64,000 bases of DNA from Frigoribacterium faeni (lineage in GTDB: Bacteria > Actinomycetota > Actinomycetes > Actinomycetales > Microbacteriaceae), in the NCBI RefSeq assembly GCF_011761235.1, contig NZ_JAAOYW010000002.1:558001-622000 (forward strand), read 5' to 3'. Below, piece after piece: positions 27,524 to 53,901 of the stretch. Within the stretch, counting starts at the first letter, position 1; every line of letters starts with the position of its first letter. Below the pieces are notes generated by a model. It had not been told where the DNA came from. It made no database searches and saw nothing but the letters and a program-made list of their open reading frames with translations. Made by a program: the position numbers and the translations under genes.

Positions 27524-27546
27524 CGGCCCGTCCTAGGTCTGTGTCT

Positions 27547-27588: not shown

Positions 27589-27601
27589 TGCTCAGGGGTC
27601 A

Positions 27602-37292: not shown

Positions 37293-39215
37293 CTAGGCGA
37301 GCACGTCGATCGAGGCGGTCGAGGACGAGGAGGCGCGGTGCAGCCCCCCGGCGCCGGCGGCGGCCGCGAGGGCCCCGGCCCGGAGCCGGTCGGGCTCGAG
37401 CTCGACGCGTCGCGCGCGGCCCTGCTGGTCGCGGGGGTCGCCGGGCGTCCCCGCGGCCTGCTGGTCGGATCGCTGGTCGGACGGCCGGTTCTGGTTCGAG
37501 AGGTCGACGCTGGCCTGCAGGCCCGCTCCCCCGAGGTCGCGACGCAGGTCGGGCAGGATCGCTCGCACTGCCTCCCGCGCGGCGTCGGACGGAGCGAACA
37601 TCTCGACGTGCATGCCCTGTCCCGCGACGTGCGCCCGCACGGTGACCGGCCCGAGGGCCTCAGGGCTCACGGTCACGGTGACGACGTGGGTGCCGGGCCC
37701 GGCCGCGGCGAGCGAGAACAGGGGACGTGCGAGCTGCTGCGTCAGCGGTGCCGGGGTCGAGGGAGGTGCCGCCGCCGGGGTGGGGACGGTGGCGGGCGCC
37801 GGGGCGGTCGGTGCGACCGGGGGCACGGCGAAGGGCACGGCGGACGGGGAGAGGGGGGTGGTGGTGGTGGTGGTGGTGGTGGTGGCGGTCGTGGCGCCGG
37901 TGCTGGCCGTCGTCACGGCGGGGGACGCGGTGCCGGTGTCGGCGCCGAGGGCGCGGCCGCTGGCCGGGGACGACGTGGTGTTCGCGCCGGCGGCGGCGGC
38001 AGCTGCGGTGGTCGCGACGGCCGCGCGGGTGGCCGGGGCGCCGCCGGGGGTGGTCGTCGAGGCCCCTGGTGCGGTGCCGGTGCCGGCCGAGCTCGTGCCT
38101 GCACCCGTGTCCGTGCCCGTCCCTGCGGGGCCGGCGGCGACGAGGACGCCGGTCGACGCGGCGAGGTCCTGCGCGGAGCCCACGGTCGCCAGCGCCGTCG
38201 CCGTCGCGACCGGACCGGCCGGCGGGAAGGGCGTGGACGCGGGGGCCGACGGGGCACCGGTGATGGTCCCGGGCGTGGCGCTCGCCACGAGGGATGCGGC
38301 GTCCCCCTCGGGACGGACGGGGGAGGTCGAGGACGCGACACCGGCCAGGGCCGCACCGCGGACGGCATCGCCCAGCTCGGAGGAGGGGAGGCTCGCCTCT
38401 CTCGCTGATCCGTCACGGGACGGATCGACGGGCACGCTGGCCGCCGAGGACGCGGACCCTGCTCCGTCACGGAACGGATCGATGGGCGCGCCAGCGGCCG
38501 CGGCCGCTGCTCCGTCACGGGACGGATCGGCGGGCACGCCAGCGGAAAGGGAGGGGGTCCCGGCCCCGAGAAGACCTGATCCGTCACGAGACGGATCGAT
38601 GGACGCTCCGGGCGAGAGGGGGGTCGCTCCGTCACGAGACGGATCGGGGGTGAGCGCGGCGGGCAGGGTCTCGGTCAGGGGCGGGGTCGCGGTCGCGGTC
38701 GCGGTCGCGGGGACGAGGATCGGGGCCGCGGACGCTTCGTCCCGTGACGGAACAGCCGCAGCTCGTTCTCCCTCCCCCTCGTTCGTACTCACGGGCGCAC
38801 TCGCATCGGCCGTCGCGTTCGCGCCGGCGCCAGCGTTCGCACCAGCGCCAACACCCGCACCAGCACCCGCGCCCGCGCCCGCACCAGCGCCAGCACCCAC
38901 ACCCGCGCCCGCCGCGGGGTGGGCCCGCCCACGCTCAGGACCAGGGCGCCGAGCAGAGTCGTGACGAGTGTCGGCACCGACGTCGCGACCGTGGCCGGAG
39001 GGGTGCGGGGCACCGCCTCCCGGGGCGACGGACGACATCGCCTCGCCGAACCCGGCGGCCGAGCTCCCGACGGCCGAGCGACCCGCGGCAGCGCGACCTG
39101 CGGCGGATCCCGCCCGGTCGGCGGCGCGGTCGGCGGCCCGGTCGGGACCGGTCGACGCGTCGGGTCGGGCCTGGGGGCCGGGTCCGACGAAGGGCAGGGT
39201 GCGCAGGACGCTCAT
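37293..39215 (-). CDS. fliK: Flagellar hook-length control protein FliK
   Basis: 640 residues. Only the C-terminal ~120 residues are globular: the FliK domain (VVTVTVSPEALGPVTVRAHV, then MHVEMFAPSDAAREAV and LPDLRRDLG), which contacts FlhB to stop hook growth. The first ~480 residues are low complexity, rich in A, P, T and G, as expected for a molecular ruler, and include GA-repeats, a ten-threonine run and five to six PSRDG units encoded by a repeated palindrome. ATG at 39215 overlaps the stop of the NlpC/P60 gene. Its ruler length suggests a long hook (inference). Confidence 0.9.
   Translation of the reverse strand: MSVLRTLPFVGPGPQARPDASTGPDRAADRAADRAGSAAGRAAAGRSAVGSSAAGFGEAMSSVAPGGGAPHPSGHGRDVGADTRHDSARRPGPERGRAHPAAGAGVGAGAGAGAGAGAGAGVGAGANAGAGANATADASAPVSTNEGEGERAAAVPSRDEASAAPILVPATATATATPPLTETLPAALTPDPSRDGATPLSPGASIDPSRDGSGLLGAGTPSLSAGVPADPSRDGAAAAAAGAPIDPFRDGAGSASSAASVPVDPSRDGSAREASLPSSELGDAVRGAALAGVASSTSPVRPEGDAASLVASATPGTITGAPSAPASTPFPPAGPVATATALATVGSAQDLAASTGVLVAAGPAGTGTDTGAGTSSAGTGTAPGASTTTPGGAPATRAAVATTAAAAAAGANTTSSPASGRALGADTGTASPAVTTASTGATTATTTTTTTTTPLSPSAVPFAVPPVAPTAPAPATVPTPAAAPPSTPAPLTQQLARPLFSLAAAGPGTHVVTVTVSPEALGPVTVRAHVAGQGMHVEMFAPSDAAREAVRAILPDLRRDLGGAGLQASVDLSNQNRPSDQRSDQQAAGTPGDPRDQQGRARRVELEPDRLRAGALAAAAGAGGLHRASSSSTASIDVLA
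37858..37884. repeat. Triplet repeat in fliK
   Basis: Nine perfect GTG triplets on the plus strand (CAC/ACC frame on the coding strand), encoding most of a threonine run in FliK. Being a 3-base unit, changes in copy number would keep the frame and only alter ruler length. Confidence 0.85.
38408..38645. repeat. Repeated palindrome inside fliK encoding (D)PSRDG
   Basis: A 20-bp near-palindrome GATCCGTCACGGGACGGATC recurs with 1-2 changes at about 38408, 38466, 38511, 38579 and 38626, with a diverged inverted copy near 38740. Each reads as DPSRDG or DPFRDG in the fliK frame. Spacing varies (45-68 bp), so these are dispersed insertions rather than a simple tandem array. Confidence 0.8.
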
Positions 39216-40030
39216 CAGGCGGCCCCTCCGCTCATCATGCGCTGCAGCGCGGCGGTCATCAGATCGGTCGACCCGGCGGACCCGGCGGACCCGGTCGCGC
39301 CGGTCGCGCCGGTGCCGGTCACGCCGAGCGTTGCGGCCAGCGACGCCAGCGAGGTCGACGCGGCGGCGCCCTGGATCGAGGAGGTGGTGCTCGCGGCGGC
39401 CGTCCCGGTCGCCGGCACGACACGGCGGATCGTCGCCAGGTCGGAGTCCTTGTACCAGTTGTCGACGATCTGGACGTCCTTGCCGGGACGGGGCGCGTGC
39501 AGCACCTTGCCGTCGCCGAGGTAGATCACGATGTGCCCCTCGCCCTTCGCGACGAGCAGGTCGCCCGGCTTCGCCTCGGCGAGCGACGGCACCTCGGCGC
39601 CCATGCGCGCCTGGTCGGGCACGACGCGCGGCATCTCGACGCCGAGCTCGCCGAACACGGTCTGCACGAGACCGGAGCAGTCCATGCCGCTCGCGCTCTC
39701 GCCGCCGAAGACGTAGGGCACGCCCAGGTACTTCTTCGCCCCGGCGACGACGTCGTCCCCGGTGGCGCCGCTGCCGGTCGCGACGGCGTCCTTGACGGCC
39801 GCCACGGAGGCGGTGCTCGCGAGGCCGCCCGTGCCGGCGGCCGACGCGGCACCGGTCCCGGTCGTGCCGGCGAGCGCGTCGGCGAACGCCGTGGCCGAGG
39901 CGGCCGAGGTCGCGGACGACGCCGCGGCCGCGGCCGTGCCGAGCAGGGACGACGTGCGTCCGCCGCGCAGCTGGTCCATCTGCGACCGGATGTCGTCGAT
40001 GCGGGACAGGACCTCGCTCACGGGGCTCAC
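39215..40030 (-). CDS. NlpC/P60-family cell wall hydrolase in the flagellar operon
   Basis: 271 residues. An NlpC/P60 cysteine peptidase domain spans ~95-215: catalytic cysteine in SASGMDCSGLVQ, histidine in KGEGHIVIYLG, third polar residue in HAPRPG. These enzymes cut peptidoglycan stem peptides. N- and C-terminal flanks are Ala/Thr/Gly-rich; no signal peptide is seen, so it may leave through the flagellar export path. It takes the place between fliJ and fliK and probably does the work of FlgJ, opening the wall for the rod (inference). GTG at 40030 overlaps the fliJ stop. Confidence 0.88.
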   Translation of the reverse strand: MSPVSEVLSRIDDIRSQMDQLRGGRTSSLLGTAAAAASSATSAASATAFADALAGTTGTGAASAAGTGGLASTASVAAVKDAVATGSGATGDDVVAGAKKYLGVPYVFGGESASGMDCSGLVQTVFGELGVEMPRVVPDQARMGAEVPSLAEAKPGDLLVAKGEGHIVIYLGDGKVLHAPRPGKDVQIVDNWYKDSDLATIRRVVPATGTAAASTTSSIQGAAASTSLASLAATLGVTGTGATGATGSAGSAGSTDLMTAALQRMMSGGAA

Positions 40031-40578
40031 GCGGCACCTCCTGGGGTCGTCGGGTCGGTCGGGTCGGTCAGGGCGGTCGAGGCGCCGGGGGCGGCAGGGG
40101 CAGGCGGGACGCTCGGGGCTGCGGTCACGCCGGCGGCGGACGCGCCTGCAGCGGCCTCGGCGGCCCGGGTGCGCCACGACTGGCCGGCGATCTCGTCGAG
40201 CGCGGCCTGCTCGGTGCGCAGGTCCTCGGCGGCGGCCTCGACCGCGTGCGCGGCCTCGAGCTTCTCGAGGCCGATCGCGGCGCGGCGGGCGGCGGCGAAC
40301 TCGGCCTGTGCCTGCTCGGCGTCGGCCCGGCGGCGGGCGGCGACCGCGTCGAGCTCGGCGAGCATGCCCCGGCTCGAGGCACGGGAGGCGGCGAGCGCGC
40401 TGAGCATGGCCGCGTCCGTCACCTGCGCGGGCCCGTCGTCGAGGGTGCGCCTCGCGGCCACGCGCCGGTCGGCGGCGTCGCGGAGGCGCTCGTTGGCCTC
40501 GGCGAGGCGTCCGGCGGCCTGGTCCTGCTGCGCGTGGCGCAGCCGCAGCAGGCCGATCAGCGAGAAGGCGCGGGCCAT
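40027..40578 (-). CDS. fliJ: FliJ-like flagellar export protein
   Basis: 183 residues. MARAFSLIGLLRLRHAQQDQ opens a long coiled coil (residues ~10-140, heptads rich in A, R, E), matching FliJ, the stalk-like activator of the FliI ATPase. The last ~40 residues are a disordered Ala/Pro/Thr tail. Overlaps fliI (ATGA) and the NlpC/P60 gene (GTGA). Call rests on coiled-coil form plus position. Confidence 0.88.
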   Translation of the reverse strand: MARAFSLIGLLRLRHAQQDQAAGRLAEANERLRDAADRRVAARRTLDDGPAQVTDAAMLSALAASRASSRGMLAELDAVAARRRADAEQAQAEFAAARRAAIGLEKLEAAHAVEAAAEDLRTEQAALDEIAGQSWRTRAAEAAAGASAAGVTAAPSVPPAPAAPGASTALTDPTDPTTPGGAA

Positions 40579-41978
40579 CAGGCACCCCCGAGCCGTGCGG
40601 TGAGCCGGGCGAGGCCGGACCACGAGGAGGCGGCGTCGGCACGCTCGTCCATGCCCTGTCGCAGGAACGCGTCGATGGCGCCCTGGTGGTCGACGGCGGC
40701 GTCGACGAGCGGGTTCGTGCCCCGCTGGTACGCGCCGACGTCGAGGAGGTCCTGGGCGGCCCGGCGGGCGGCCATCACCGTGCGGAGGGCAGTCGCGGCG
40801 GCGCGCTGCTCGGGCGTGGTCACCTTCGAGGCGACGCGCGAGACGGAGCCGAGGGCGTCGATCGACGGGAAGTGCCCCGTCACGGCCAGCTTGCGGTCGA
40901 GCACGACGTGGCCGTCGAGGATGCTGCGGGCCGCGTCGGCCACCGGCTCGTTGTGGTCGTCGCCGTCGACCAGCACCGTGTAGAGCCCGGTGACCGAGCC
41001 GACGCGGTCGGTGCCGGCGCGCTCGAGCAGCTCGGCCAGCACCGAGAACGTCGACGGCGGGTAGCCCCGGGTGGCGGGCGGCTCGCCGACCGAGAGGCCG
41101 ATCTCGCGCTGCGCCATGGCGACGCGGGTGAGCGAGTCCATCATCAGCACGACGTCGGCGCCCTGGTCGCGGAACGACTCGGCGATCCGGGTCGCGACGA
41201 ACGCCGCCCGGAGGCGCATGAGGGCCGGCTCGTCGCTGGTCGAGACCACGACGACGGACCGGGCGAGGCCCTCGGGTCCGAGGTCGTCCTCGAGGAACTC
41301 GCGCACCTCCCTGCCGCGCTCCCCCACGAGCGCGACGACGCTGACCTGCGCGTCGGTGCCGCGGGCGATCATCGACAGCAGCGACGACTTGCCGACGCCG
41401 GAGCCGGCGAACAGGCCCACGCGCTGCCCGCGACCGACCGTGGTGAGCGTGTCGAGCACGCGGACGCCGAGCTGCAGCGGGGTGTCGATGCGGGCGCGCT
41501 GCATCGCCGACGGGGTCTCGTGGTGCAGCGGGACGAGGTCGACGGCGCCGCCGTCCGGGGCGCGCAGGGGGCCGCGGCCGTCGATCGGCCGGCCGAGGCC
41601 GTCGAGCACACGGCCGAACAGGCCGGTGCCGGTGGGGACGAGGAGGGGGCGGCCGGTCGAGCGCGCCGGCGTGCCGGCCGTCACGCCGGTGAGGCGGCCG
41701 AGCGGCATGCAGCGCAGGCCGTCGGGGGTCGTCGCGACGACCTCGGCCAGGGCGGCCGACGGGGCGGCGTCCGACGCGGCGACGGAGGGACCGGCGAGCG
41801 TGGCCGTGCTCGTGGTCGCGCCCGGCCCGCCGATCTCGAGCACGTCGCCGACCGCGGCGTCGAGGCCCTGCACCGTGATGCCGAGGCCGACGGCGCTGAC
41901 GACGCGGCCCACGCGCTGCGGGCGCGCGGCGGCGCGGGCGGCGTCGAGCCGGGTGCGGACGGGGGCGGTGAGGGTCAC
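40578..41978 (-). CDS. fliI: Flagellum-specific ATPase FliI
   Basis: 466-residue ATPase related to F1-beta that delivers substrates to the export gate. Walker A GLFAGSGVGKSSLL (~residue 195), Walker B VVLMMDSLTRVAMAQREIG, and the FliI-typical SVGEPPATRGYPPSTFSVL. The C-terminal helices include GAYQRGTNPLVDAAV. GTG start at 41978 overlaps fliH. The N-terminal ~75 residues carry an Ala/Ser-rich insertion. Confidence 0.97.
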   Translation of the reverse strand: MTLTAPVRTRLDAARAAARPQRVGRVVSAVGLGITVQGLDAAVGDVLEIGGPGATTSTATLAGPSVAASDAAPSAALAEVVATTPDGLRCMPLGRLTGVTAGTPARSTGRPLLVPTGTGLFGRVLDGLGRPIDGRGPLRAPDGGAVDLVPLHHETPSAMQRARIDTPLQLGVRVLDTLTTVGRGQRVGLFAGSGVGKSSLLSMIARGTDAQVSVVALVGERGREVREFLEDDLGPEGLARSVVVVSTSDEPALMRLRAAFVATRIAESFRDQGADVVLMMDSLTRVAMAQREIGLSVGEPPATRGYPPSTFSVLAELLERAGTDRVGSVTGLYTVLVDGDDHNEPVADAARSILDGHVVLDRKLAVTGHFPSIDALGSVSRVASKVTTPEQRAAATALRTVMAARRAAQDLLDVGAYQRGTNPLVDAAVDHQGAIDAFLRQGMDERADAASSWSGLARLTARLGGA

Positions 41979-42823
41979 GATGCTCCGAGCAGGGCGGTGC
42001 GCGCCCGGTCGAGGGCCGTGGCCAGGCGGGCGTCGACGAGCCCCGTGGGCAGGTCCGCCTCGGCGTCGCCGCGGCCGAGCCGGGCGTCGGCGACCAGGGG
42101 CACCGAGGAGGCGGCGGCCGCGTCCCCGAGGGCGGCCAGGTCGGCCGGGTGCAGCCGGACGCCCACGACGAGGGCACGGTCGACGCCGTCGAGGGCGCGG
42201 GCGACGGCGGCCCGGGCGGTGCGGCCCTCGCGCGGGCCGGCCGGGTGCTGCGCGGCGGGGAGGGTGTCGATGTCGGTGCCGGCCTCGGCGTGGGGCGCGG
42301 TGTCGGGCGCGGTCCCTGCCTCGGGCGCCGCCGGCGGCTCGGAGGCGGCGACCTCGTAGCCGACGATCGCGGAGGCGAGCTCCAGCGCGGACGCGACCAG
42401 CGCCTCCTCGGACTCGGCGAGCACCGGCACGACCTGGCGGCGCAGCGCGTCGGCGGCCGCGTCGAGGGCGGCGAAGGAGGCGGCGAGCGACCGCTCGAGA
42501 CGCGTCGCCTGCTCGAGGTGCTCGGCCTCCATCGCGGCACGACGGGCGACGAGGTCGGCCTCGGCGGCGCGCAGGCCCGCGGCGTACCCGGCGGCGTGGC
42601 CGCGGGCCTCGGCCCGGGCGGCGCGCACGGCGGCGTCGGGGTCGGCGTGGGGCGCCAGGTGGCCCGCGCCGCGGGTGCCCGCGTGCAGGCCGGCGGCGGA
42701 GGTGGCGGCGTGGCCGACCTCGAGGGCGTGGGCGGTCGTCGCGGAGCCGGACCGCACCTCCGTGAGCGAGGGGTAGACGACGCGCGAGAACGACTCCGGG
42801 GCGGAGATCACGGGATCGGGCAT
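41975..42823 (-). CDS. fliH: FliH-like regulator of the export ATPase
   Basis: 282 residues. After an ~80-residue variable N-terminus comes a long Ala-rich coiled coil with AxxxG-like spacing (RAEARGHAAGYAAGLRAAEA) and the FliH C-terminal region (LVASALELASAIVGYEV ... VVGVRLHPADLAAL, ARLGRGDAEADLPTGLVDAR), which matches the E. coli FliH/YscL end. It binds FliI and FliN. First gene of the fliH-flgE block, with its own sigma-28-type promoter and CsrA-type hairpins. Confidence 0.9.
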   Translation of the reverse strand: MPDPVISAPESFSRVVYPSLTEVRSGSATTAHALEVGHAATSAAGLHAGTRGAGHLAPHADPDAAVRAARAEARGHAAGYAAGLRAAEADLVARRAAMEAEHLEQATRLERSLAASFAALDAAADALRRQVVPVLAESEEALVASALELASAIVGYEVAASEPPAAPEAGTAPDTAPHAEAGTDIDTLPAAQHPAGPREGRTARAAVARALDGVDRALVVGVRLHPADLAALGDAAAASSVPLVADARLGRGDAEADLPTGLVDARLATALDRARTALLGAS

Positions 42824-42852
42824 CGACGGGGCCGTTCAGACGGGGGCGGTGC

Positions 42853-42889
42853 GGCCGATCCGTGGCCTGGGGTCGAGCGATCCGTGCTC
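42853..42889 (-). promoter_or_regulatory. Twin CsrA-type hairpins in the fliH leader
   Basis: On the minus-strand transcript: GAGC-ACGGATC-GCTC (42875-42889) and GGCC-ACGGATC-GGCC (42853-42867). Both loops are identical and contain ACGGA, the CsrA core. The same pair occurs in the flgB leader, whereas the surrounding bases differ. Confidence 0.75.
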
Positions 42890-42897
42890 AGGGGCGA

Positions 42898-42925
42898 CTC
42901 TCGGCAGGTCGCGGGGGGCGCGTAA
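42898..42925 (-). promoter_or_regulatory. Sigma-28 (FliA)-type promoter of fliH-fliI-fliJ-fliK-flgDE
   Basis: Minus strand: TTAC (42922-42925), 16 bases, GCCGAGAG (42898-42905). Start near 42890, just before the first hairpin. Confidence 0.65.
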
Positions 42926-42978
42926 GGCGTTGCCCCGAACGGGGGCAGGTGCGGGACCCGTGCGGCTCATCGAGAAAC

Positions 42979-43010
42979 TACTTGCCTGGCGAGCAAGTAC
43001 TTCCTAGAGT
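42979..43010 (+). promoter_or_regulatory. Promoter with overlapping palindromic operator
   Basis: TACTTGC-N7-GCAAGTA (42979-42999) is a perfect 7-bp inverted repeat covering -35 TTGCCT (42982-42987) and most of the 17-base spacer to -10 TAGAGT (43005-43010). Likely bound by the winged-helix protein encoded second in the operon (autorepression, inference). Confidence 0.72.
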
Positions 43011-43037
43011 GGGAGCACATCGACGAGAGGACCGACC

Positions 43038-43481
43038 ATGACCGACCAGAGCCGTCTCCCCACCCCGGAGGAGGCCCGCCGCCTCCTCGACGACGCCGAC
43101 TCGACCGGGCGGCACACCACCTCGCGGGCAGGCTGGCCCGGCGTCGCCGTGCTGCTGTCGCTCGGCGCCGTGCTCTCGCTCGGCACCCTCGCCATGGGGC
43201 TCACCACCGGCACGAACTACTTCGTCGCCATGGTCGGGCTGCTGACCTGGGTCGCCGTGGTGGTCGGGTTCCAGCTCGTGTTCTTCCGGTCGCACCGACT
43301 CGGCGGCGGTCGCCGCTGGGGCCTCTACATCGCCGCGATGTTCGCGATCTACCTGGTCGCGATGCTCGTGGTCGGGTCGTCCGAGGGCCGGGCCGTCGGG
43401 GCCACCTGCCTGGCGGCGGCGGCGCTGCTGGTCGTCTCGGTCGCCGCGGCGACCCACGAGGCGCGGCAGGTCGTGCGATGA
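43038..43481 (+). CDS. Small membrane protein paired with a winged-helix regulator
   Basis: 147 residues with four membrane helices in two pairs (residues ~32-55, 60-85, 95-112, 118-138). A soluble, charged N-terminus begins MTDQSRLPTPEEARRLLDDA. Ribosome site AGAGGA. Overlaps the regulator gene (ATGA). Pairs of an integral membrane protein and a winged-helix protein of this type are common in actinobacteria; function unknown. Inserted on the opposite strand between fliG and fliH. Confidence 0.8.
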   Translation: MTDQSRLPTPEEARRLLDDADSTGRHTTSRAGWPGVAVLLSLGAVLSLGTLAMGLTTGTNYFVAMVGLLTWVAVVVGFQLVFFRSHRLGGGRRWGLYIAAMFAIYLVAMLVVGSSEGRAVGATCLAAAALLVVSVAAATHEARQVVR

Positions 43482-43882
43482 GCGGGGCGGCGGACGGAGC
43501 GGCCGGGGGCGGGGCGGCTGCGGGCGGGTCGGCCGAGGGCGGGGCCGCTGCGGGCGGGGCGGCTGCCTCGGGAGGGGGCGCGGCGGGCGGTCCGCACCCG
43601 CGCCTCCGGCTCTCCGACACCCTGCACCAGCCGGTGCGGTTCTCGATGGCGGCGGCGCTCGCGGCGGCCGACCAGCTCGACTTCAAGGACCTGCGCGACG
43701 CCGTCCAGGTCACCGACTCGGCGCTGAGCAAGCAGATCAGCATTCTCGAGGCGGCCGGGTACGTGGCGGTGTCGAAGGGGTTCGTCGGCAAGCGGCCGCG
43801 GACGACGCTGAAGCTCACTCCCGAGGGACGCGCCGCGTGGGCGGACCACCTCGCGGTGCTGCGCGAGATCGCGGCCGGCTAG
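43478..43882 (+). CDS. Winged-helix transcriptional regulator (HTH_34-like)
   Basis: 134 residues. The first ~40 are a Gly/Ala/Ser low-complexity stretch. A winged helix covers ~42-130: LRLSDTLHQPVRFSMAAALA, the recognition helix in VTDSALSKQISILEAAGYV, and the wing GKRPRTTLKLTPEGR. This matches the MarR-like winged-helix DNA-binding family PF13601. It probably binds the palindrome TACTTGC-N7-GCAAGTA in its own promoter. The start could lie at a later codon past the Gly/Ala stretch. Confidence 0.85.
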   Translation: MSGAADGAAGGGAAAGGSAEGGAAAGGAAASGGGAAGGPHPRLRLSDTLHQPVRFSMAAALAAADQLDFKDLRDAVQVTDSALSKQISILEAAGYVAVSKGFVGKRPRTTLKLTPEGRAAWADHLAVLREIAAG

Positions 43883-43936
43883 CCGCTGCCGCACGTGCTG
43901 CACCCGCCGCACCCCGCGTCGGACCGGCCCTGCAAA

Positions 43937-44007
43937 TGCCGACCGATCGGCCCCATCGACCACCGCAATGGTGGGAAAAAGCGGTGTTACGACCCGGCCG
44001 GTCGGCA
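43937..44007. other. Structured, relatively A-rich element between fliG and the winged-helix gene
   Basis: TGCCGACCG (43937-43945) and CGGTCGGCA (43999-44007) are perfect inverted copies 53 bases apart. Between them lie a small hairpin CCACC-GCAAT-GGTGG (43960-43974) and the run GGGAAAAAGCGG. The 313-base gap 43883-44195 contains no gene. It may be the terminator region of both convergent transcripts or a structured RNA; it matches no riboswitch I know. Confidence 0.4.
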
Positions 44008-44195
44008 TCCGCCGAGCATCCCCGAGGAGGCGCGGGTCGGCCGGACGAGGGACGCTGCAGAACCCGACAGGGCGGGCTTCCAAGGCCGCAGAGCAACCGG
44101 AAAAGCACCTGTTGCGCGTGCCGCGGTCGGCAATCGCGGCGGCGGCGGATGCGCGGCACCGCGCAGCACGGCACGGCACGGCGCGGCGCGGCGGC

Positions 44196-45260
44196 CTACT
44201 CGACGAGGGCGTCCTCGTCGGCGCGGTGCACCGTGATGGCGCCCTGGGCCTCGAGCTCCCGGATGGCGCGCACGACCTCGGCCCGCGCCTCCTCGACCTG
44301 CGACTTGCGGACCGGGCCCATCGACTGCAGCTCGTCGTCGAGCAGCTCGCGGTTGCGCTCCGACACGTTGCCCCGGATCACCTCCGTGACGGCGGCGAGC
44401 GCCCCCTTCATCGCCGTCGCGAGCACCGCGGCGTCGATGCCGCGCAGCACCTGCTGGATGTCGCGCGACTCGAGCTTGACGATGTCCTCGAAGGTGAGCA
44501 TGCGCGAGCGGACCTCCTCGGCGAGCTCGGGGTCGCGCTCGTCGAGGCCGTCGAGCAGGGCGCGTTCGGTGGCGCTGTCGCTGCGGTTGATGATCTCGAC
44601 GAGGGGCTGGATGCCCCCGACGACCTCGACCTGCTCCCGCGGCGCGACGACGGCGCCCGCCCTGATCTTGAGGGTGGTCGCGACGATGCCGACGGCCTCG
44701 GGCGTGGCGGTGCCCATCGTGGCGATCGCCTGGGCGACGTCGGTGCGGGCCGCGACGTCGAGCCCGGCGAGCACGGCGGACGCCTGCTGCGGGCGCAGGT
44801 GCGCGAGCACGAGGGCGATGGTCTGCGGCAGCTCGCCGTCGAGCAGGGTGATGACCTGGCCGGGGTCGGCCTCGTCGAGGAACTCGAAGCTCTTGCCCAT
44901 CGCGTTCGAGGCGAGGCGCTCCATGAGGCCCGCCGCTCGCTCCGAGCCGAAGGAGGCCTCGAGCAGGCCCACGGCGACGTCGTGCCCGCCGCGCCGCTGG
45001 TAGCGGCCCGAGCGCGTCAGCTCGTGGAACTCGGCGACCGCCGACTCGGCCACCGAGGGGTCGACGCGGCGCAGCTTGACGATCTCGGCCGTGATCTCCT
45101 CGGCCTCCTCCTCGCTGAACTGCTTCATGACGACCGCGGCACGGGCCTGGTCCATCTGCATGAGGATGACCGCCACCTTCTGCGGCCCCGTCAGCGCGGG
45201 CCGCGCCGCCGGCAGGCCGATGACCTGGGTGGGGGCGAGGTCGGCGGCGGTCGCGCTCAC
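44196..45260 (-). CDS. fliG: Flagellar motor switch protein FliG
   Basis: 354-residue C-ring protein that transmits torque. N-terminal GPQKVAVILMQMDQARAAVV; middle EHPQ-like patch ELPQTIALVLAHLRPQQASA; C-terminal torque helix region MLTFEDIVKLESRDIQQVLR with the conserved charged residues. GTG at 45260 overlaps the fliF stop. Its downstream partner fliH is separated by 1.4 kb that includes two plus-strand genes. Confidence 0.96.
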   Translation of the reverse strand: MSATAADLAPTQVIGLPAARPALTGPQKVAVILMQMDQARAAVVMKQFSEEEAEEITAEIVKLRRVDPSVAESAVAEFHELTRSGRYQRRGGHDVAVGLLEASFGSERAAGLMERLASNAMGKSFEFLDEADPGQVITLLDGELPQTIALVLAHLRPQQASAVLAGLDVAARTDVAQAIATMGTATPEAVGIVATTLKIRAGAVVAPREQVEVVGGIQPLVEIINRSDSATERALLDGLDERDPELAEEVRSRMLTFEDIVKLESRDIQQVLRGIDAAVLATAMKGALAAVTEVIRGNVSERNRELLDDELQSMGPVRKSQVEEARAEVVRAIRELEAQGAITVHRADEDALVE

Positions 45261-46945
45261 GACTGCACCCGCTCGTCCATCAGGCCGCGCAGCAGCTCGG
45301 CGGTCTTCTCCGGGTCGCGCTCGGCGAGGGCGTCGATCTCGGCACGGCGGCGCTCGGCCGACACGTACTCGGGCGAGGGCTCGGGCGCCGCGACCGGCAG
45401 GGCCACGGTGACGGCCTCGTCGGCGAGGAGCTGACCGCGGGAGGCGGCACCCGCGTCGTCGAGGTCGAGCCGCATGGTCGCGTCCCAGGTCTGGGCGGGG
45501 TTGCCGGCCGTGAGCTCGCCGAGGTCGACGTCCTCGCGGTCGTGGCGGCGGTTCTTCTTCGCGAAGACGATCAGGCCGACGATCAGCGCGATCACGATGA
45601 GCGCGACGATCCCGACGGTGCGGATGGTTCCCCACATCGCCTCGGAGGCGGCGGCCGCGTCCGCCGCGGCGAGCGCCGCCTTCGCGGCCTCGGCGCCCTG
45701 GGTGTCGAAGTCGACGAGGGCCACCTCGACGGCGTCGCCCCGGGCGGCGTCGATCCCGGCCGCGGTGCGCACGAGGTCGTTGATCGACTGCAGGTTGACG
45801 CCGGCTGCCGCACCGGCGTCCAGGGCGACCGACACGGTCTGCCGGCTGACGCCTCCTGCGGGCACGCTCATGGTCTCGGTGACCTTGTCGACCGCGTTGT
45901 TCTTGGTGGCCGACTCGTTGACGTAGCCGTCGTCGCCGGCGGCGGTGCCGGCCGCGTCGGTGCCGGTGCCGGTGCCGTTCGGCACGGCGATGTTGTCGGG
46001 GCCGAGCACGCCGGTCGCGCCGGTGCCGTCGGCTCCCCCGGAGCCCGCGCCGTACTGCTCGGTCGTGCTGGACTCGTTGAGGGCGATCGGCCCGGTCTCG
46101 GGCTGCGTGAACGACTCGGTGACCTTCGTGCCCGAGCTCTGCTCGAGGTCGGCGGCGACGACCACCGACGACTTGCCGGGGCCGACGACCTTGTCGAGCA
46201 TCGTCTGCACGGCGGTCTGCACCTTCGACTCGTAGTCGCTGACCTGGTCGCCGGCGCCGCCGACGGCCCCGGTGCCGACCTGCGAGAGCACGGCCCCGGT
46301 CGAGTCGGTCACGGCGACGTCGGTCGTCGCCATGCCCTCGACGGAGGCGCTGGTCAGGTTGACGATCGCCTGCACCTGCTTGCCGGTGAGGGTCGCGCCC
46401 CCCTTCGTCTCGACGAACACCGACGCGGTCGGGTCCTCCTGCTCGGCGACGAAGACGCTCTCCTCGGGGATGGCGAGCTGCACGCTGGCGGTCTTGACGC
46501 CGTCCATGGCCGAGATCGTCTTGGCGAGCTCGCCCTCGATGGCGCGCTTGTAGGTGACGTCCTGCTGGAACTCGGACGAGGTGACGCCCATCGTGTCGAG
46601 CAGCGAGTAGCCGCCCTGGCCGCTGGTCGACGGCAGGCCGGCCGCGGCCGCGGTGAGGCGCTCCTGGTAGACGTGCTCCTCGGGCACGAGGATCGTGCCG
46701 CCGCCCGCCGTCAGCTCGTACGGGACGCCGTCGGCCTGCAGCTGCTCGACGATCGCGCTGGCGTCGACGGGGTCGATGCCGCTGAACAGCGGGGTGTAGT
46801 TCGGCTTCGTCAACCAGCTGACGAGGGCGACCGTGCCGAGCACGAGCGCCGCGACGAGGATCACCGCGATGGTCTTCTGGGCGAGCGAGAAGCCGCCGAG
46901 GGTCGCCCGCATCCGGTCGAGCGTGTTCTGCACTGCGGTGGGCAT
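45257..46945 (-). CDS. fliF: Flagellar MS-ring protein FliF
   Basis: 562 residues with the expected two membrane helices (residues ~24-45 and ~445-468) bracketing a large periplasm-side region with ring-building motifs (NYTPLFSGIDPVDASAIVEQ, and LDTMGVTSSEFQQDVTYKRA). The C-terminus (residues ~530-562) is the FliG-binding tail. ATG at 46945 overlaps the fliE stop. Forms the base of the rotor and houses the export gate. Confidence 0.97.
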   Translation of the reverse strand: MPTAVQNTLDRMRATLGGFSLAQKTIAVILVAALVLGTVALVSWLTKPNYTPLFSGIDPVDASAIVEQLQADGVPYELTAGGGTILVPEEHVYQERLTAAAAGLPSTSGQGGYSLLDTMGVTSSEFQQDVTYKRAIEGELAKTISAMDGVKTASVQLAIPEESVFVAEQEDPTASVFVETKGGATLTGKQVQAIVNLTSASVEGMATTDVAVTDSTGAVLSQVGTGAVGGAGDQVSDYESKVQTAVQTMLDKVVGPGKSSVVVAADLEQSSGTKVTESFTQPETGPIALNESSTTEQYGAGSGGADGTGATGVLGPDNIAVPNGTGTGTDAAGTAAGDDGYVNESATKNNAVDKVTETMSVPAGGVSRQTVSVALDAGAAAGVNLQSINDLVRTAAGIDAARGDAVEVALVDFDTQGAEAAKAALAAADAAAASEAMWGTIRTVGIVALIVIALIVGLIVFAKKNRRHDREDVDLGELTAGNPAQTWDATMRLDLDDAGAASRGQLLADEAVTVALPVAAPEPSPEYVSAERRRAEIDALAERDPEKTAELLRGLMDERVQS

Positions 46946-47310
46946 CAGGCCTGCATCCTCATGATCTCGGTGAAGGCGTCGACGCCCTTGTTGCGGACGG
47001 CGGCGACGAGCTCGAGCGTCACCTGGGCACGCGTGGCCGCGATGGTCGCGTCGTGGATGTCGGTGAGGTCGCCGGTGACGGCCTTGACGGCCAGGGTCTT
47101 CGACTGGCTCTGCAGCTGCTGCAGGCCCTCGACGGCGCCGACCATGCTCGACCCGAAGGCGGCACCGGAGGCGCTGGCGACGCTGGTCGTCCCGGTCGCC
47201 GAGGAGGCGCCTCCTGCGTTCCCGGCAGCGCCGGCCTGCAGGAGCGACGACACGTCGGCGTACCCGGACTGCGCGACGGCCCCGACGGCGGGGATCCCTG
47301 CGACCGGCAT
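46945..47310 (-). CDS. fliE: Flagellar basal-body protein FliE
   Basis: 121 residues. The C-terminal half shows the FliE pattern (TLAVKAVTGDLTDIHDATIA, and VTLELVAAVRNKGVDAFTEI with final MRMQA). The N-terminal half is Ala/Gly/Ser-rich. Connects the MS ring to the rod. Overlaps flgC and fliF by four bases at each end. Confidence 0.95.
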   Translation of the reverse strand: MPVAGIPAVGAVAQSGYADVSSLLQAGAAGNAGGASSATGTTSVASASGAAFGSSMVGAVEGLQQLQSQSKTLAVKAVTGDLTDIHDATIAATRAQVTLELVAAVRNKGVDAFTEIMRMQA

Positions 47311-47705
47311 CAGCCGCGACCGATCTGGAGGGCGGCCTCGTAGGCGGTCTTGGCACGGTCGACCACGGCGGCGTTCGCCTGGTAGCCGCGCTGGGCCATG
47401 ATCAGGTCGGCCATCTGGGCTCCCAGGTCGATGTCGGGCATGCGCACGTATCCCTCGGCGTCGGCGAGCGGGTGGTCGGGCAGGTAGGTGACACGGCCGG
47501 CCTCGCTGCCGTAGCGGTCGGCCTTGACGAAGGCGCCGCTGGTGCCGGCGCCCTCCTGCACCTCGACGTAGCGGGCCTGGAACGCGGTGTCGTCCATGCT
47601 CTTGACCGTGTTGACGTTGGCGATGTTGTCGGAGACGGCGTCGAGCCACTTGCGGTGCACGGTGAGGCCGGTGCTCGCGATGCCGATCGCGTCGAAGGCG
47701 GTCAC
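47310..47705 (-). CDS. flgC: Flagellar proximal rod protein FlgC
   Basis: 131 residues, standard length. N-terminal FDAIGIASTGLTVHRKWLDA and SDNIANVNT; C-terminal DIDLGAQMADLIMAQRGYQA, the rod/hook family signature. GTG start overlaps the flgB stop. Part of the proximal rod. Confidence 0.96.
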   Translation of the reverse strand: MTAFDAIGIASTGLTVHRKWLDAVSDNIANVNTVKSMDDTAFQARYVEVQEGAGTSGAFVKADRYGSEAGRVTYLPDHPLADAEGYVRMPDIDLGAQMADLIMAQRGYQANAAVVDRAKTAYEAALQIGRG

Positions 47706-48064
47706 GAGTTGGTCCTGTACGCGGCGCGGACGCTGGTGAGCTCGCCGTTCATCGCCTGCGTGGCGAACTGGTACCGCAGCACCGTGTCGATGTTCGAGAG
47801 CGTCTCGGTGTCGAGGTTGACGTTGTTGCCGTCGAGCCGGGTCGGCTCGAGCGAGCGCTGCGTCGTGGCCTGCACCTGGCCTGCCCCGGGGACCCCGCCG
47901 CCCTGTGCGACCGACCGGCCGAGCGCCTCCTCGAACTGCACGCGCTTGGCCTGGTAGCCGGGCGTGTTCACGTTCGAGATGTTCGCGGCGATGGTCTTCT
48001 GGCGCAGCGAGAGGCCGTCGAGGGCGCTCTGCAGCGCGGCCTGGGTCACGGATTCGATCGGCAT
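47702..48064 (-). CDS. flgB: Flagellar proximal rod protein FlgB
   Basis: 120 residues with the rod signature SLRQKTIAANISNVNTPGYQ and C-terminal YQFATQAMNGELTSVRAAYR. First gene of the flgB-fliG block. Ribosome site GGACAGG. Preceded by a sigma-28-type promoter and the same twin ACGGATC hairpins as fliH. Confidence 0.96.
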   Translation of the reverse strand: MPIESVTQAALQSALDGLSLRQKTIAANISNVNTPGYQAKRVQFEEALGRSVAQGGGVPGAGQVQATTQRSLEPTRLDGNNVNLDTETLSNIDTVLRYQFATQAMNGELTSVRAAYRTNS

Positions 48065-48097
48065 GTGCCTGTCCAGAGGGGTCTCGTGGGGGGTGGG

Positions 48098-48135
48098 GGC
48101 CGATCCGTGGCCGAGGGGTCGAGCGATCCGTGCTC
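48098..48135 (-). promoter_or_regulatory. Twin CsrA-type hairpins in the flgB leader
   Basis: On the minus-strand transcript: GAGC-ACGGATC-GCTC (48121-48135) and GGCC-ACGGATC-GGCC (48098-48112). Loops equal those in the fliH leader. The first hairpin would lie at the very 5' end of the transcript. Confidence 0.75.
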
Positions 48136-48143
48136 AGGGCGCT

Positions 48144-48170
48144 CTATCGGCGCGGGGCGGGGGCGCGTAA
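48144..48170 (-). promoter_or_regulatory. Sigma-28 (FliA)-type promoter of flgBC-fliEFG
   Basis: Minus strand: TTAC (48167-48170), 15 bases, GCCGATAG (48144-48151). Start near 48137. Confidence 0.75.
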
Positions 48171-48257
48171 GGGCGCGCCCCCGGAGTGGGGGCGCGTGGC
48201 GGTGCGTGGGCACGCGCGGTGCGTGGGTGCGCGGTGTGCGCGGGTGCGTCAGAGCGG

Positions 48258-48314
48258 CGAGTTGCCCCGGATGGTCGTGTCGAGGCCGGGGACGTGACCG
48301 TCCGGGGCAACTCG
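48258..48314. repeat. 57-bp intergenic palindrome (type C)
   Basis: CGAGTTGCCCCGGA (48258-48271) and its exact inverted copy (48301-48314) enclose a further partial inverted repeat (GGTC...GACC). It lies between the flgB promoter and the small membrane protein gene, inside the 290-base gap 48065-48354, whose other contents are the promoter and hairpins of flgB. Confidence 0.8.
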
Positions 48315-48354
48315 ATCTCGCGTGTGTGGCGGGGCGCGGTGCGACACTGGGGCC

Positions 48355-48669
48355 GTGAGCGACGACGACGCGTGGCCCGACGGGCTCGACGAGGCCCGCC
48401 GCCTCTTCGGCACGCCCGACGGGGCCGAGCCGGTCACCGTCGACGGCGACGTGGACGACTCCGACCGGGTGCGTCACGTGCTGGGCCGCTCGCTCGGGGG
48501 CACGGCGGGGCTCGTCGTGCTCGGGCTGATCGCCGCGCTCGTCGTCGTGTTCGTCGTGGCGCCGCTCCTCCTGTGGCCGGTGGGGGCGTGGATCGCCCTC
48601 CTGGAGCCGCCGCCCGTGGAGCTGCCGTCGCCCTGGTGGTTCACGGAGCTGCCGGGGCGGTACGCCTAG
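48355..48669 (+). CDS. Small single-span membrane protein
   Basis: 104 residues, unrecognised. The first ~50 are acidic and soluble; one strong membrane helix follows (TAGLVVLGLIAALVVVFVVA and continuing to ~residue 85), then a short tail with PSPWWFTELPGRYA. Start GTG at 48355 is the most plausible given length, with only a weak ribosome site. It is followed 65 bases later by the DJ-1/PfpI gene. Confidence 0.62.
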   Translation: MSDDDAWPDGLDEARRLFGTPDGAEPVTVDGDVDDSDRVRHVLGRSLGGTAGLVVLGLIAALVVVFVVAPLLLWPVGAWIALLEPPPVELPSPWWFTELPGRYA

Positions 48670-48734
48670 CCGGTCGCCTGTCGGGCGAGGCCTCGGCGAG
48701 GCCCCGGCGTCGCCCGGGCGACGAGACTGGGCGC

Positions 48735-49325
48735 ATGACCAAGACGATCGGCATCTTCCTGTTCGACCAGTACGAGGAGCTCGACGCGATCGGCCCCTGG
48801 GAGGTGCTCTCGTACTGGACGAAGGCTCACACCGGCGACGGCTGGCGGGTGATCACGTTCGGCGACGCCCCCGGGCCGGTCACCGCCGCGAAGGGCCTGC
48901 GCGTGCTGCCCGACACGACGATCGACGAGCTGCCGCCGCTCGACGTGCTGATCTACCCGGGCGGCAAGGGCACGCGCGCCCACCTCGACGACGAGGAGCG
49001 CCTCGCCTGGGTGCGCGACCAGGCCGACAGCGTGCCGTTGATGGCCAGCGTGTGCACCGGCTCCTTGGTCTTCGCGGCCGCCGGCCTGCTCACCGGACGC
49101 GCCGCGACGACGCACTGGGGCTCGACCGTGCTGCTCGGCAGCCTCGACCCGACCATCGACGTGCGCGAGGACGAGCGCTTCGTGGACGACGGCGACGTCG
49201 TCACGTCGGCCGGGGTGAGCGCGGGCATCGACATGGCGCTGCACCTCGTCATGCGCCTGGGAGGTGCGGCGCGCGCGAAGCAGGTGCGCCGCGGCATCGA
49301 GTACGACCCGCAGCCGCCCGTGTGA
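48735..49325 (+). CDS. DJ-1/PfpI-family protein, isonitrile hydratase-like
   Basis: 196 residues. IGIFLFDQYEELDAIGPWEV opens the family fold. The nucleophile elbow is PLMASVCTGSLVFAAAGLL, followed by GRAATTHW, the pattern of isonitrile hydratase (InhA) and of the ligand-binding half of some AraC regulators; no AraC DNA-binding domain is attached. DVVTSAGVSAGIDMALHLV continues the match. Whether it hydrates isonitriles is unproven. It converges on the FliT-like gene. Confidence 0.85.
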   Translation: MTKTIGIFLFDQYEELDAIGPWEVLSYWTKAHTGDGWRVITFGDAPGPVTAAKGLRVLPDTTIDELPPLDVLIYPGGKGTRAHLDDEERLAWVRDQADSVPLMASVCTGSLVFAAAGLLTGRAATTHWGSTVLLGSLDPTIDVREDERFVDDGDVVTSAGVSAGIDMALHLVMRLGGAARAKQVRRGIEYDPQPPV

Positions 49326-52089: not shown

Positions 52090-52938
52090 CTAGCGGAGGA
52101 GCGACAGCACGCCCTGGGTGCTCTGGTTCGCCTGCGCGAGCATCGCCTGGCCGGCCTGGCTGAGGACGTTCGAGCGGGTGTACTTGACCATCTCCTCCGC
52201 CATGTCGACGTCGCGGATGCGCGAGTTCGCCGCCGTGAGGTTCTCCTTCGCGACGTTGGTCGACGCGATGGAGTGCTCGAAGCGGTTCTGCACGGCACCG
52301 AGCTCGGAGCGGACCGTCGAGACGGCCGTGATCTGCTTGTCGAGCTCGAGGATCGCCAGCTGCGCGTTGTCGGCCGTGTCGAACTCGAGTCCGCTGATCG
52401 TCGTGGCGACGGCACCGATGTCGGCCTTCGACAGGTCGACCTTGATCTGGTCCGCGGCGGCCGTTCCGCCCGCGCCGACCTGGAACTTCATGACGCCGTC
52501 GGTGTCGGCACCGGCGCTCGCGTCGAGCAGGTTGATGCCGTTGAAGTTGGTCGACGCCGAGATGCGGGTGAGCTCCTCGGTCAGGGCCGTGACCTCGGTG
52601 CCGATGGCCTTGCGGGCGTCGGCGTTGTTCGAGTCGTTGCCGGCCTGGACGGCCAGGTCGCGGACGCGCTGGAGGATGGAGTGGACCTCGGTGAGGCCGC
52701 CCTCAGCGGTCTGGACGACCGAGATGCCGTCCTGGGCGTTGCGCGCGGCCACCGTCAGTCCGCCGACCTGCGAGCGCAGGCCCTCGGAGATCGAGAGGCC
52801 GGCCGCGTCGTCAGCGGCACGGTTGATGCGGAGGCCCGACGAGAGCTTCTCGAGGCTCTTCGACAGGTCGTTCTGCGTGGCGTTCAGGTTGCGGTAGGTG
52901 TTGTTCGCCGCGAGGTTGGTGTTGATCTGCATGCCCAT
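52090..52938 (-). CDS. fliC: Flagellin FliC, minimal D0/D1 form
   Basis: 282-residue filament subunit. N-terminal MQINTNLAANNTYRNLNATQ and SSGLRINRAADDAAGLSISE; C-terminal SRIRDVDMAEEMVKYTRSNV and AMLAQANQSTQGVLSLLR, the D0/D1 helices and export-relevant ends. Only ~70 residues separate the two halves, so the outer D2/D3 domains are essentially absent. Monocistronic: sigma-28-type promoter upstream, terminator downstream. Its leader carries two CsrA-type sites. AGAGGA precedes the ATG. Confidence 0.97.
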   Translation of the reverse strand: MGMQINTNLAANNTYRNLNATQNDLSKSLEKLSSGLRINRAADDAAGLSISEGLRSQVGGLTVAARNAQDGISVVQTAEGGLTEVHSILQRVRDLAVQAGNDSNNADARKAIGTEVTALTEELTRISASTNFNGINLLDASAGADTDGVMKFQVGAGGTAAADQIKVDLSKADIGAVATTISGLEFDTADNAQLAILELDKQITAVSTVRSELGAVQNRFEHSIASTNVAKENLTAANSRIRDVDMAEEMVKYTRSNVLSQAGQAMLAQANQSTQGVLSLLR

Positions 52939-52944
52939 GGTGTT

Positions 52945-52992
52945 TCCTCTTCCGTGACTGGGTGGTGTTCGTCAGCCCGTCCGTGGGCTGAC
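52945..52992 (-). promoter_or_regulatory. Two CsrA-type sites in the fliC leader
   Basis: On the minus-strand transcript: a perfect 8-bp hairpin GTCAGCCC-ACGGAC-GGGCTGAC (52971-52992) shows ACGGAC in a 6-base loop. A second GGA site, CACGGAAGAGGAA, spans the Shine-Dalgarno at about 52944-52956. This upstream-loop plus SD-site arrangement is that of the B. subtilis hag leader. Confidence 0.8.
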
Positions 52993-53000
52993 ACCGGCTA

Positions 53001-53027
53001 CTCTCGGCCGGTCGCCGGCGCTCGTTA
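53001..53027 (-). promoter_or_regulatory. Sigma-28 (FliA)-type promoter of fliC
   Basis: Minus strand: TAAC (53024-53027), 15 bases, GCCGAGAG (53001-53008). Start near 52994, directly before the CsrA-type hairpin; fliC begins at 52938. Confidence 0.72.
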
Positions 53028-53079: not shown

Positions 53080-53901
53080 TCAGACGGCGGCGCTGAAGCC
53101 CTCGACGGCGGGCTCGCGCACGGCGCGGGCGATGCCCACGGCGGCGTTCGTCGCGACCTTCGAGAGGTAGGCGCTGCGGCGCGCGGGCGCCGTCCTGGAG
53201 ACGGGCTCGAAGGCCGCGTCGGGGTCGTCCGCGTAGTGGGCGGCGAGCGCGTCCCTGAGCAGGCGGACCGCCTCCGTGCGCTGCTGCGACACCGCGCTGT
53301 GGGTGATGCCGAGCTCGGCGGCGACCTCGGTGACCGTGCGGTCGCCGAAGTAGACGGCCTCGACGATGAGGCGCATGCGCTCGGGCAGGGCGTCGACGGC
53401 GGCGCGCACGTAGCGGCTGCGCTCGCTGGCGAGCAGGTGGTCGCCGGGCATCGGCACGTCGGCCGCGAGGTGGTCGGCGACGGTGTCATCGAGGGTCGAG
53501 ACGGTGCGCGCCGCGTCGGCGAGGGCGCTCGACGCGGTCTGCCGGTCGACGCCGAGGGCGCCGGCGATCTCGTCGACCGAGGGGGCGCGTCCCAGGGACG
53601 CGGTGAGCGCCTCCTGCGTGGCCAGCGTCTCCTTGATGCGCTTGCGCGTGCCGCGGCTGGCCCAGTCGCCCGAGCGCATGTCGTCGGCGAAGGCGCCGAC
53701 GATGCGGGTGCGGGCGTAGGCGCCGAACGGGATGCCGAGCGTGGGGTCGAACGCGTCCGCGGCCTGCACGAGGGCGACGGCGCCGACGCTGGCGAGGTCG
53801 TCGCGCGACAGGTGGGTGGCACGGGCGCACACCTCGCTGACGAGGTAGCCCACCAGCGGCAGGTTCTCGACCACCATGGCGTTGCGTTCGGTGCGGTTCA
53901 T
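53080..53901 (-). CDS. fliA: RNA polymerase sigma factor FliA (sigma-28/WhiG family)
   Basis: 273 residues. Region 2: PLVGYLVSEVCARATHLSRD, then FDPTLGIPFGAYARTRIVGA with the FliA/WhiG signature. Region 3 lies around residue 105-150 (GRAPSVDEIAGALGVDRQTA). Region 4 helix-turn-helix: TVTEVAAELGITHSAVSQQR. A ~55-residue tail follows region 4. The ATG at 53901 has GGGAG 7 bases before it. Flagellar promoters in this window match the sigma-28 consensus, making this their reader. No flgM anti-sigma gene is seen. Confidence 0.92.
   Translation of the reverse strand: MNRTERNAMVVENLPLVGYLVSEVCARATHLSRDDLASVGAVALVQAADAFDPTLGIPFGAYARTRIVGAFADDMRSGDWASRGTRKRIKETLATQEALTASLGRAPSVDEIAGALGVDRQTASSALADAARTVSTLDDTVADHLAADVPMPGDHLLASERSRYVRAAVDALPERMRLIVEAVYFGDRTVTEVAAELGITHSAVSQQRTEAVRLLRDALAAHYADDPDAAFEPVSRTAPARRSAYLSKVATNAAVGIARAVREPAVEGFSAAV

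Follow-up and report, generated by a model that had tools for sequence, protein, structure and literature searches.

The window examined here is a 64,000-nt stretch of the Frigoribacterium faeni genome (contig NZ_JAAOYW010000002.1, positions 558,001 to 622,000), and the element under study is a pair of short hairpins, the twin, found in the leaders of two of its flagellar operons, both on the minus strand. One is the rod/basal-body operon, which starts with flgB (47702-48064; Pfam flagellar rod protein, assigned to FlgB by position and similarity) and continues with flgC, fliE, fliF and fliG (named from gene order and position). The other, the export-ATPase operon (fliH, fliI, a fliJ-like gene and fliK), starts with fliH (41975-42823; assigned by Pfam); FliI was named by its ATPase domains, and the FliJ match lay below its Pfam cut-off. 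In each leader a GAGC-ACGGATC-GCTC hairpin (hairpin I) is followed by a GGCC-ACGGATC-GGCC hairpin (hairpin II). Upstream of flgB (start at 48064), hairpin I, TGAGC-ACGGATC-GCTCG, occupies 48120-48136, at the predicted 5′ end, and hairpin II occupies 48098-48112, both being recognised by sequence and by folding. Upstream of fliH (start at 42823), hairpin I, TGAGC-ACGGATC-GCTCG again, was recognised by sequence at 42874-42890, and hairpin II lies at 42853-42867. The ACGGATC loops occupy 42857-42863 and 42879-42885 in the fliH leader, and 48102-48108 and 48125-48131 in the flgB leader. Pattern matching placed sigma-28 (FliA)-type promoters upstream of both twins, at 48144-48170 for the flgB operon (TTACG-N14-GCCGATAG) and at 42898-42925 for the fliH operon (a form with a longer spacer, TTACG-N15-GCCGAGAG), both on the minus strand. 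An earlier note on this DNA had described twin ACGGATC hairpins at the start of both predicted transcripts, in the same locus as csrA. Their coordinates and flanking stems were re-found on the minus strand, the predicted starts are consistent with the sigma-28-like promoters just upstream, and csrA lies on the same strand at 16044-16295, as the only match in the genome.

The bare ACGGATC heptamer is not in excess (14 copies in the window against 13.2 expected). The paired arrangement ACGGATC-N8..20-ACGGATC, in turn, has three matches in the whole genome: the flgB leader, the fliH leader and one ACGGATCTTGCCC...ACGGATC, a type that recurs across many genomes of the window's family. With the heptamer at chance and the paired arrangement rare, it is the pairing, not the word, that stands out. 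A covariance model, R1, was trained on 20 flgB leaders, one per locus and that of the window among them, together with the window's fliH leader. On the window genome it found the flgB and fliH leaders at E 1.7e-11 and 1.5e-10; the next best match (2e-3) has no flgB or fliH downstream. For flgB, a 46-nt fold of the start of the leader, beginning 3 nt before hairpin I, gave hairpins I and II and nothing else, and both persisted in the full 75 nt, together with a weak downstream stem. In the fliH leader, hairpin II formed in a 45-nt fold; the lowest-energy fold of the whole leader kept hairpin I and broke hairpin II.

The conservation of the twin was assessed in leaders chosen by the FlgB protein alone, with misses counted and, where a genome had two FlgB places, the best one used. 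A twin was defined as two ANGGA hairpins with stems of at least 4 bp and a GGA spacing of 16-32. The first 30 FlgB loci (16 from the window's genus) all had the twin or a close form. Among 69 FlgB-positive genomes of the window's order and class, 16 of them from its genus, the twin was present in 52 flgB leaders and at least one ANGGA hairpin in 65 (Markov shuffles of the 69 leaders gave 0.01 and 3.35, respectively). All 26 leaders from the window's family had it, as did 26 of the 43 from other families, and 13 of the 23 families had at least one twin. By eye, several of the 17 non-twin leaders have AGGA loops or a single stem mismatch. Of 398 named FlgB loci, the best 80 were examined and 76 of them had the twin (shuffle null, 0.02); this set shares some genomes with the 69. 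By eye, the four loci without it retain the greater part of the element. The named loci sampled include Frigoribacterium, Arthrobacter, Cryobacterium, Leifsonia, Microbacterium, Agromyces, Sinomonas, Planctomonas and Occultella, among others, and the closest FlgB in that collection, 97% identical, is that of Frigoribacterium sp. PhB116 (Microbacteriaceae). The element is thus present in flagellar mRNAs of many actinobacteria, beyond the window's genus. The covariance search that the earlier note had proposed gave two strong R1 matches, before flgB and before fliH, in each of nine same-genus relatives; the loss of the hairpins in close relatives that keep csrA, which would have spoken against its reading, was not seen (all 15 same-genus relatives keep csrA and the flgB twin). 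A twin upstream of fliH was seen only in the window's genus. In one genome of that genus-level comparison, G003 (L150, 974-1105), a GCACGCA repeat array of ∼130 nt stands between the twin and flgB; the twin is kept, ∼140 nt further from flgB than usual (176 nt against a median of 38 nt).

R1 itself, with E values up to 1e-4, matched 43 of 248 genomes of the order (46 matches). Another 34 genomes of the order were CsrA-positive and R1-negative; 17 of these were looked at, and flgB was found in 13 (for G587, G516, G464 and G543 there was no flgB in the stretch taken). Ten of the 13 had weak R1 matches just upstream of flgB (E 1.8e-5 to 9e-3), and the remaining three had two hairpins of other sequence (G053), one hairpin (G505) or none (G037). 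A restriction of the element to the order, as might be read from an R1 scan of the phylum (9 of 376 genomes, with E below 1e-9 only in the window's genome and weak matches outside the order, E 1e-4 to 1e-3), was rejected, since the class leaders selected by FlgB have the element with other stems and R1 is therefore too narrow. A loose pair pattern run on 398 genomes of the family had matches in 226; those listed were mostly unrelated sequences, and the pattern served as a lead only.

The position of the twin is tied to that of the promoter. The distance from the first base of the -10 box to the GGA of hairpin I was 21-23 nt in 58 of the 65 flgB leaders with a recognisable -10 box, among 71 measured, and 22-24 nt in all 76 twins of the named set. 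Transcription from sigma-28 promoters starts some 7-8 nt after the -10 box. If this holds here, hairpin I would form the very 5′ end of the mRNA, and the two CsrA-type sites fit such a 5′-end position, the start being predicted from the promoter.

The flagellin gene of the window (hag/fliC, 52090-52938, minus strand; Pfam PF00669 and PF00700) has a leader of related but different design, which was absent from the earlier note's account. Downstream of a sigma-28-type promoter (53001-53027, minus strand, by pattern match) lies a hairpin with a 9-bp stem and a hexaloop, TGTCAGCCC-ACGGAC-GGGCTGACG (52970-52993, minus strand; sequence and fold), and a second ANGGA, in ACGGAAGAGG (52946-52955, minus strand), sits on the presumed Shine-Dalgarno sequence just before the ATG. 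All 15 flagellin leaders examined combine an ANGGAN hexaloop hairpin with an ANGGA close before the start, 24-36 nt apart; shuffles of these leaders gave 0.38 hairpins. A third gene, flbD (27128-27523, minus strand; Pfam PF06289), has in its leader the hairpin CCCGCCCC-ACGGAC-GGtGGCGGG (27547-27569, minus strand; sequence and fold), which contains one bulge. A strict hairpin without bulge was found in three of six flbD leaders, the window's being a miss owing to its bulge, and AAGGA precedes the start in four of five leaders from relatives. The flbD leader (27524-27601) also holds CTGAGCAGCTCAGGACGAGCAGCTCG, a second structured stretch with a GGA.

Several properties of the twin are those of RNA. 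The loops keep A-N-GGA, and N is C, T, G or A in the 69-genome and named sets and in an alignment of 96 rows, where the loop pattern requires GGA, so that its invariance there is imposed. The alignment derives from 84 parsed leaders (87 R1 matches minus the weak second matches in L018 and L102 and the coding-like L149), from which L140 and L145 were left out for their loop form and to which 14 rows were added. Stem I changes on both sides between families, from GAGC/GCTC to CGGGGCGC/GTGCCCCG or GTGAGCC/GGCTCAC, and its outward extensions differ yet pair (e.g. GGAGTGAGC/GCTCACTCC and GGGGCGAGC/GCTCGCCCC). Stem II is GGCC/GGCC in most members of the order examined, CGCC/GGCG in f104, f114 and f116, GCCG/CGGC with a hexaloop in most of f24, GCGCC/GGCGC in f16, GGCGCC/GGTGCC in f110 and GCCC/GGGC in seven named loci. 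The outer pairs 5 and 6 of stem I scored above all 1000 shuffles of the 96 rows, and above all but 1 and 3 of 1000, respectively, when 38 rows were used (one per genus and one for second-site copies); the stem I geometry was chosen to favour pairing, and this test leans towards structure. The GGA-GGA spacing is 20-28 in the 84 parsed leaders and 20-31 in the class set, mostly 22-23. The loops of flgB leaders are mostly of 7 nt, and of 6 nt in some lineages, as in the 15 flagellin leaders. The free N and the two-sided stem changes point to an RNA rather than a DNA element. A DNA operator, in which the two ACGGATC copies would be half-sites for a transcription factor immediately after the sigma-28 promoter, would account for the lock at ∼22 nt from the -10 box and for half-sites that are identical in many genomes. 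Such an operator is, however, extremely unlikely, for the half-site spacing drifts between 20 and 31, the stems change as hairpins do, the N of the loop is free, and flagellin has the same loop in a different stem together with a copy near its start codon.

The csrA gene of the window codes for a protein of 84 aa (Pfam PF02599), recognised by profile and by alignment to structure chains: residues 1-52 align to solved CsrA/RsmE chains, and residues 2-64 to chain 5dmb_D. R6 and R44 are both present in the aligned protein of the window, and R44 is named in a CsrA review (PMC7652899). FliW has one match in the window genome, outside the window (C2:631297). CsrA was found in 75 and FliW in 76 of the 248 genomes of the order, the window genome included; the CsrA counts cover order genomes. 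All but two of the 43 R1-positive genomes have CsrA (41), as do 33 of 35 twin genomes asked directly; both times the missing two are one and the same pair of drafts (580 and 610 contigs). CsrA recognises an ANGGAN loop, and a dimer can bridge two sites 10-63 nt apart, best above 18 nt (PMC7652899). The twin has its ANGGA motifs in hairpin loops and its two sites within this range, and the window genome codes for CsrA. The earlier note had taken the hairpins as candidate CsrA sites, a view strengthened by the ANGGA loops with a free N, the changing stems, the spacing of 20-31 nt and the presence of csrA and fliW, and further by the same loop type on the flagellin mRNA with its second ANGGA on the Shine-Dalgarno. 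Judged from these sequence features, CsrA very probably binds the twin.

The distance of the twin from the ribosome binding region bears on what this binding might do. In the same 65 leaders, the GGA of hairpin II lies 25-176 nt from the inferred start codon, and in none of the 71 leaders measured does the twin come closer to it than 25 nt; in one species the distance is 176 nt. Of 143 flgB leaders (the two sets together have 149, six of them with no start codon found), only 12 have an ANGGA at 4-22 nt upstream of the inferred start, and that of the window (L005) is not one of them, whereas all 15 flagellin leaders have an ANGGA close to the start. In the window, neither flgB nor fliH has a site on the Shine-Dalgarno of the kind known from Bacillus subtilis hag, the fliH leader being judged by reading only. 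The earlier note's proposal that CsrA co-represses both operons finds no support in these counts. Repression of the flgB and fliH operons, by hindered ribosome loading from upstream, by recruitment of decay or by termination, is a possibility that we rate as somewhat improbable. It is the commonest reported effect of CsrA (PMC7652899), and in Campylobacter jejuni CsrA represses flaA, whose leader has two GGA hexaloops at a distance of 21 nt (PMC4894983). In addition, the second GGA is only 25-26 nt from the inferred start in the closest cases, where hindrance is possible, and in family f104 all five leaders (L192, L193, L197, L198 and L201) add a third ANGGA near the start codon, as a conserved ACGGAG close before the inferred GTG; in that family, this sequence arrangement would fit repression.

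With the twin off the ribosome site, 5′-end protection (activation), repression and titration are all compatible with its position. The twin keeps its distance from the promoter and stays off the ribosome site, and for this reason we favour control of mRNA lifetime. From the sequence evidence, we consider it likely that the twin is a CsrA-binding element of sigma-28-transcribed flagellar mRNAs, a dimer clamp that controls the lifetime of the basal-body mRNA. One CsrA dimer would bridge both ANGGA loops of the flgB mRNA, at its 5′ end or close by, and in the window's genus the fliH mRNA would have such a clamp too. Being off the ribosome site, the clamp would most likely protect the 5′ end, as in Escherichia coli flhDC, where CsrA bound at two 5′-end sites blocks RNase E (PMC7652899). 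A positive effect, exerted on mRNA stability, is a guess by analogy with some structural support, to which we give slightly less than an even chance. The same CsrA would repress flagellin through its hairpin and the Shine-Dalgarno-overlapping site, as in B. subtilis hag, and FliW would set the amount of free CsrA. More tentatively still, the two effects might form a switch of opposite sign, old and shared across the class of flagellated Actinomycetes, in which free CsrA protects flgB mRNA and shuts off flagellin. If so, a pile-up of flagellin, with FliW occupied and CsrA free, would drive more export bases instead of more filament.

A CsrA-independent role of the hairpins, as 5′-terminal stabilisers or as a site for another RNA-binding protein, would suit hairpin I, which lies where the mRNA is predicted to begin, and a hairpin at the 5′ end can shield an mRNA. 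A plain stabiliser, however, would not need ANGGA in both loops while N varies, and we hold this explanation to be very improbable. The leaders might instead act mainly as CsrA sponges that free the flagellin mRNA, since the C. jejuni flaA leader titrates CsrA (PMC4894983) and TwoAYGGAY RNAs, with two such loops, have been proposed as sponges (PMC4333381). Against this, the element heads one operon class in the leaders examined and was not seen as a free RNA, and the second copy in Frigoribacterium is again on a flagellar operon, so that a sponge seems unlikely. Among the 248 genomes of the order, more than one R1 match was found only in the window genome, G430 and G565 (two each). The second twin of the latter two lies on a contig other than that of flgB, before neither flgB nor fliH; there, a sigma-28-like promoter and the twin precede an NlpC/P60-type gene (G565:C32, L131; G430:C21, L132), assigned by Pfam in G565 and by eye in G430. 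The reverse-strand gene beside it resembles glucose-6-phosphate isomerase. A flagellar role for this NlpC/P60-type hydrolase would be a guess.

Several observations weigh against the CsrA clamp proposed above, besides the third site in f104. In the first alignment, stem II is invariant in all 21 rows, which makes its covariation uninformative there, and stem I is nearly so; stems this constant are more than a CsrA site needs. The fold energy of twin leaders is no better than that of shuffles, and both hairpins exceed a probability of 0.5 in only 48 of 98 leaders. Most twins have heptaloops, and extra loop nucleotides can lower CsrA affinity (PMC7652899). By the strict count, four of the 69 leaders (G037 and three others) have no ANGGA hairpin and 13 have one only or no spaced pair; G037, from another family, keeps csrA and fliW with no ANGGA hairpin at flgB. 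Finally, csrA travels with flagella, so its co-occurrence with the twin cannot single out CsrA among flagellar factors.

The closest described parallels differ from the twin in instructive ways. The C. jejuni flaA leader (PMC4894983) likewise has adjacent GGA hairpins, with a GGA spacing of 21 nt, on a flagellar mRNA in a genome with FliW. There, however, the mRNA is that of flagellin, its translation is repressed by CsrA and the phylum is another (PMC4894983), whereas here the element belongs to a basal-body operon, at a predicted 5′ end and off the ribosome site. B. subtilis hag has two CsrA sites, one of them on the Shine-Dalgarno (PMC2587704, PMC7652899), which is also the plan of the window's flagellin leader, and the window genome codes for both CsrA and FliW. 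The flgB/fliH twin differs from hag in having two near-equal hairpins and no Shine-Dalgarno site. E. coli flhDC, also a flagellar mRNA, has two CsrA sites close to its 5′ end (PMC7652899), a position that the twin would share if its predicted start is right; flhDC codes for a master regulator, in a proteobacterium, and is likened here by description, not by sequence. The loop form AYGGAY of the TwoAYGGAY RNA (Rfam RF01731) is taken here from the family name. Like the twin, this RNA has two terminal loops and is a proposed CsrA binder (PMC4333381, PMC2864571); unlike it, TwoAYGGAY is listed from the human gut, gamma-proteobacteria and Clostridiales, as a proposed sRNA (PMC4333381, PMC2864571). 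No Rfam family (release 15) matched the window at its gathering score, and RF01731 was not among the matches up to E 10, either on 41000-49000 or on 161 bases around the flgB leader.

To our knowledge, CsrA biology is known mainly from proteobacteria, Bacillus and Campylobacter, and the control of flagellar genes in actinobacteria has been little studied. The closest proposal concerns Kineococcus radiotolerans, an actinobacterium with csrA in a motility island, in which the flagellin Shine-Dalgarno was proposed as a CsrA site in 2008, from sequence; the portion of that paper available names flagellin only and no flgB leader element (PMC2587704). In a 2023 survey of actinobacterial flagella, csrA occurs once in the main text, as far as available, in a list of proteins searched (PMC10746217). 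Titles and abstract openings in the open literature reported no CsrA element on flgB or fliH in actinobacteria. The earlier note's remark that it knew of no described actinobacterial Csr flagellar circuit therefore needs qualifying: the flgB/fliH element was not found described in these sources, and CsrA control of flagellin had been proposed earlier, in K. radiotolerans (PMC2587704). If the switch of opposite sign exists, it would add a CsrA target, an architecture and a logic not found described for this phylum. The element itself points to concrete predicted targets: flgB, flagellin and flbD, and fliH in the window's genus. A twin that is locked to the promoter and free of the ribosome site would also be a natural test of whether early flagellar mRNAs are controlled through stability or through translation.

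The wider set of sigma-28-type promoters was also inspected. The pattern TWACG-N14-GCCGAKAG matched the genome exactly at five sites, each within the flagellar region and upstream of fliM, flbD, flgB, hag and flgN (flbD, hag and flgB named by Pfam; fliM and flgN from position and resemblance only). Three more matches had one mismatch, and a reversed control pattern gave one match. The flbD-mot operon has its promoter at 27602-27628 (minus strand, by pattern match). A gene just upstream of hag (53080-54138, minus strand) codes for a sigma-70-family factor with regions 2, 3 and 4, FliA-type by position. Four of the six sigma-28-type promoters found in the genome (hag, flgB, fliH and flbD) lead into an ANGGA hairpin. 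The fliM promoter has almost no leader and no hairpin: it lies at 25285 (minus strand) and ends 8 nt before a GTG (25250), a possible start of the presumed fliM, whose mRNA would be nearly leaderless. In the flgN leader a GGA occurs only in a larger loop, with no consistent ANGGA hairpin by eye in 14 relatives.

The fliK gene (37293-40037, minus strand), a hook-length gene, contains a 48-bp tandem repeat at 38403-38546, which holds part of seven ACGGATC copies at 38407-38645; these are in coding sequence, outside the leaders. Two genes on the plus strand (43038-43882), opposite to that of the flagellar operons, separate the presumed fliG from fliH; they code for a 147-aa protein without Pfam match and a 134-aa HTH_34 protein. 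The distance between the flgB and fliH twins is ∼5.1-5.5 kb in the window genome, G001 and G008, and ∼4.0-4.2 kb in G002-G005, G007 and G009, a difference suggesting that this gene pair may be an insertion in one branch.

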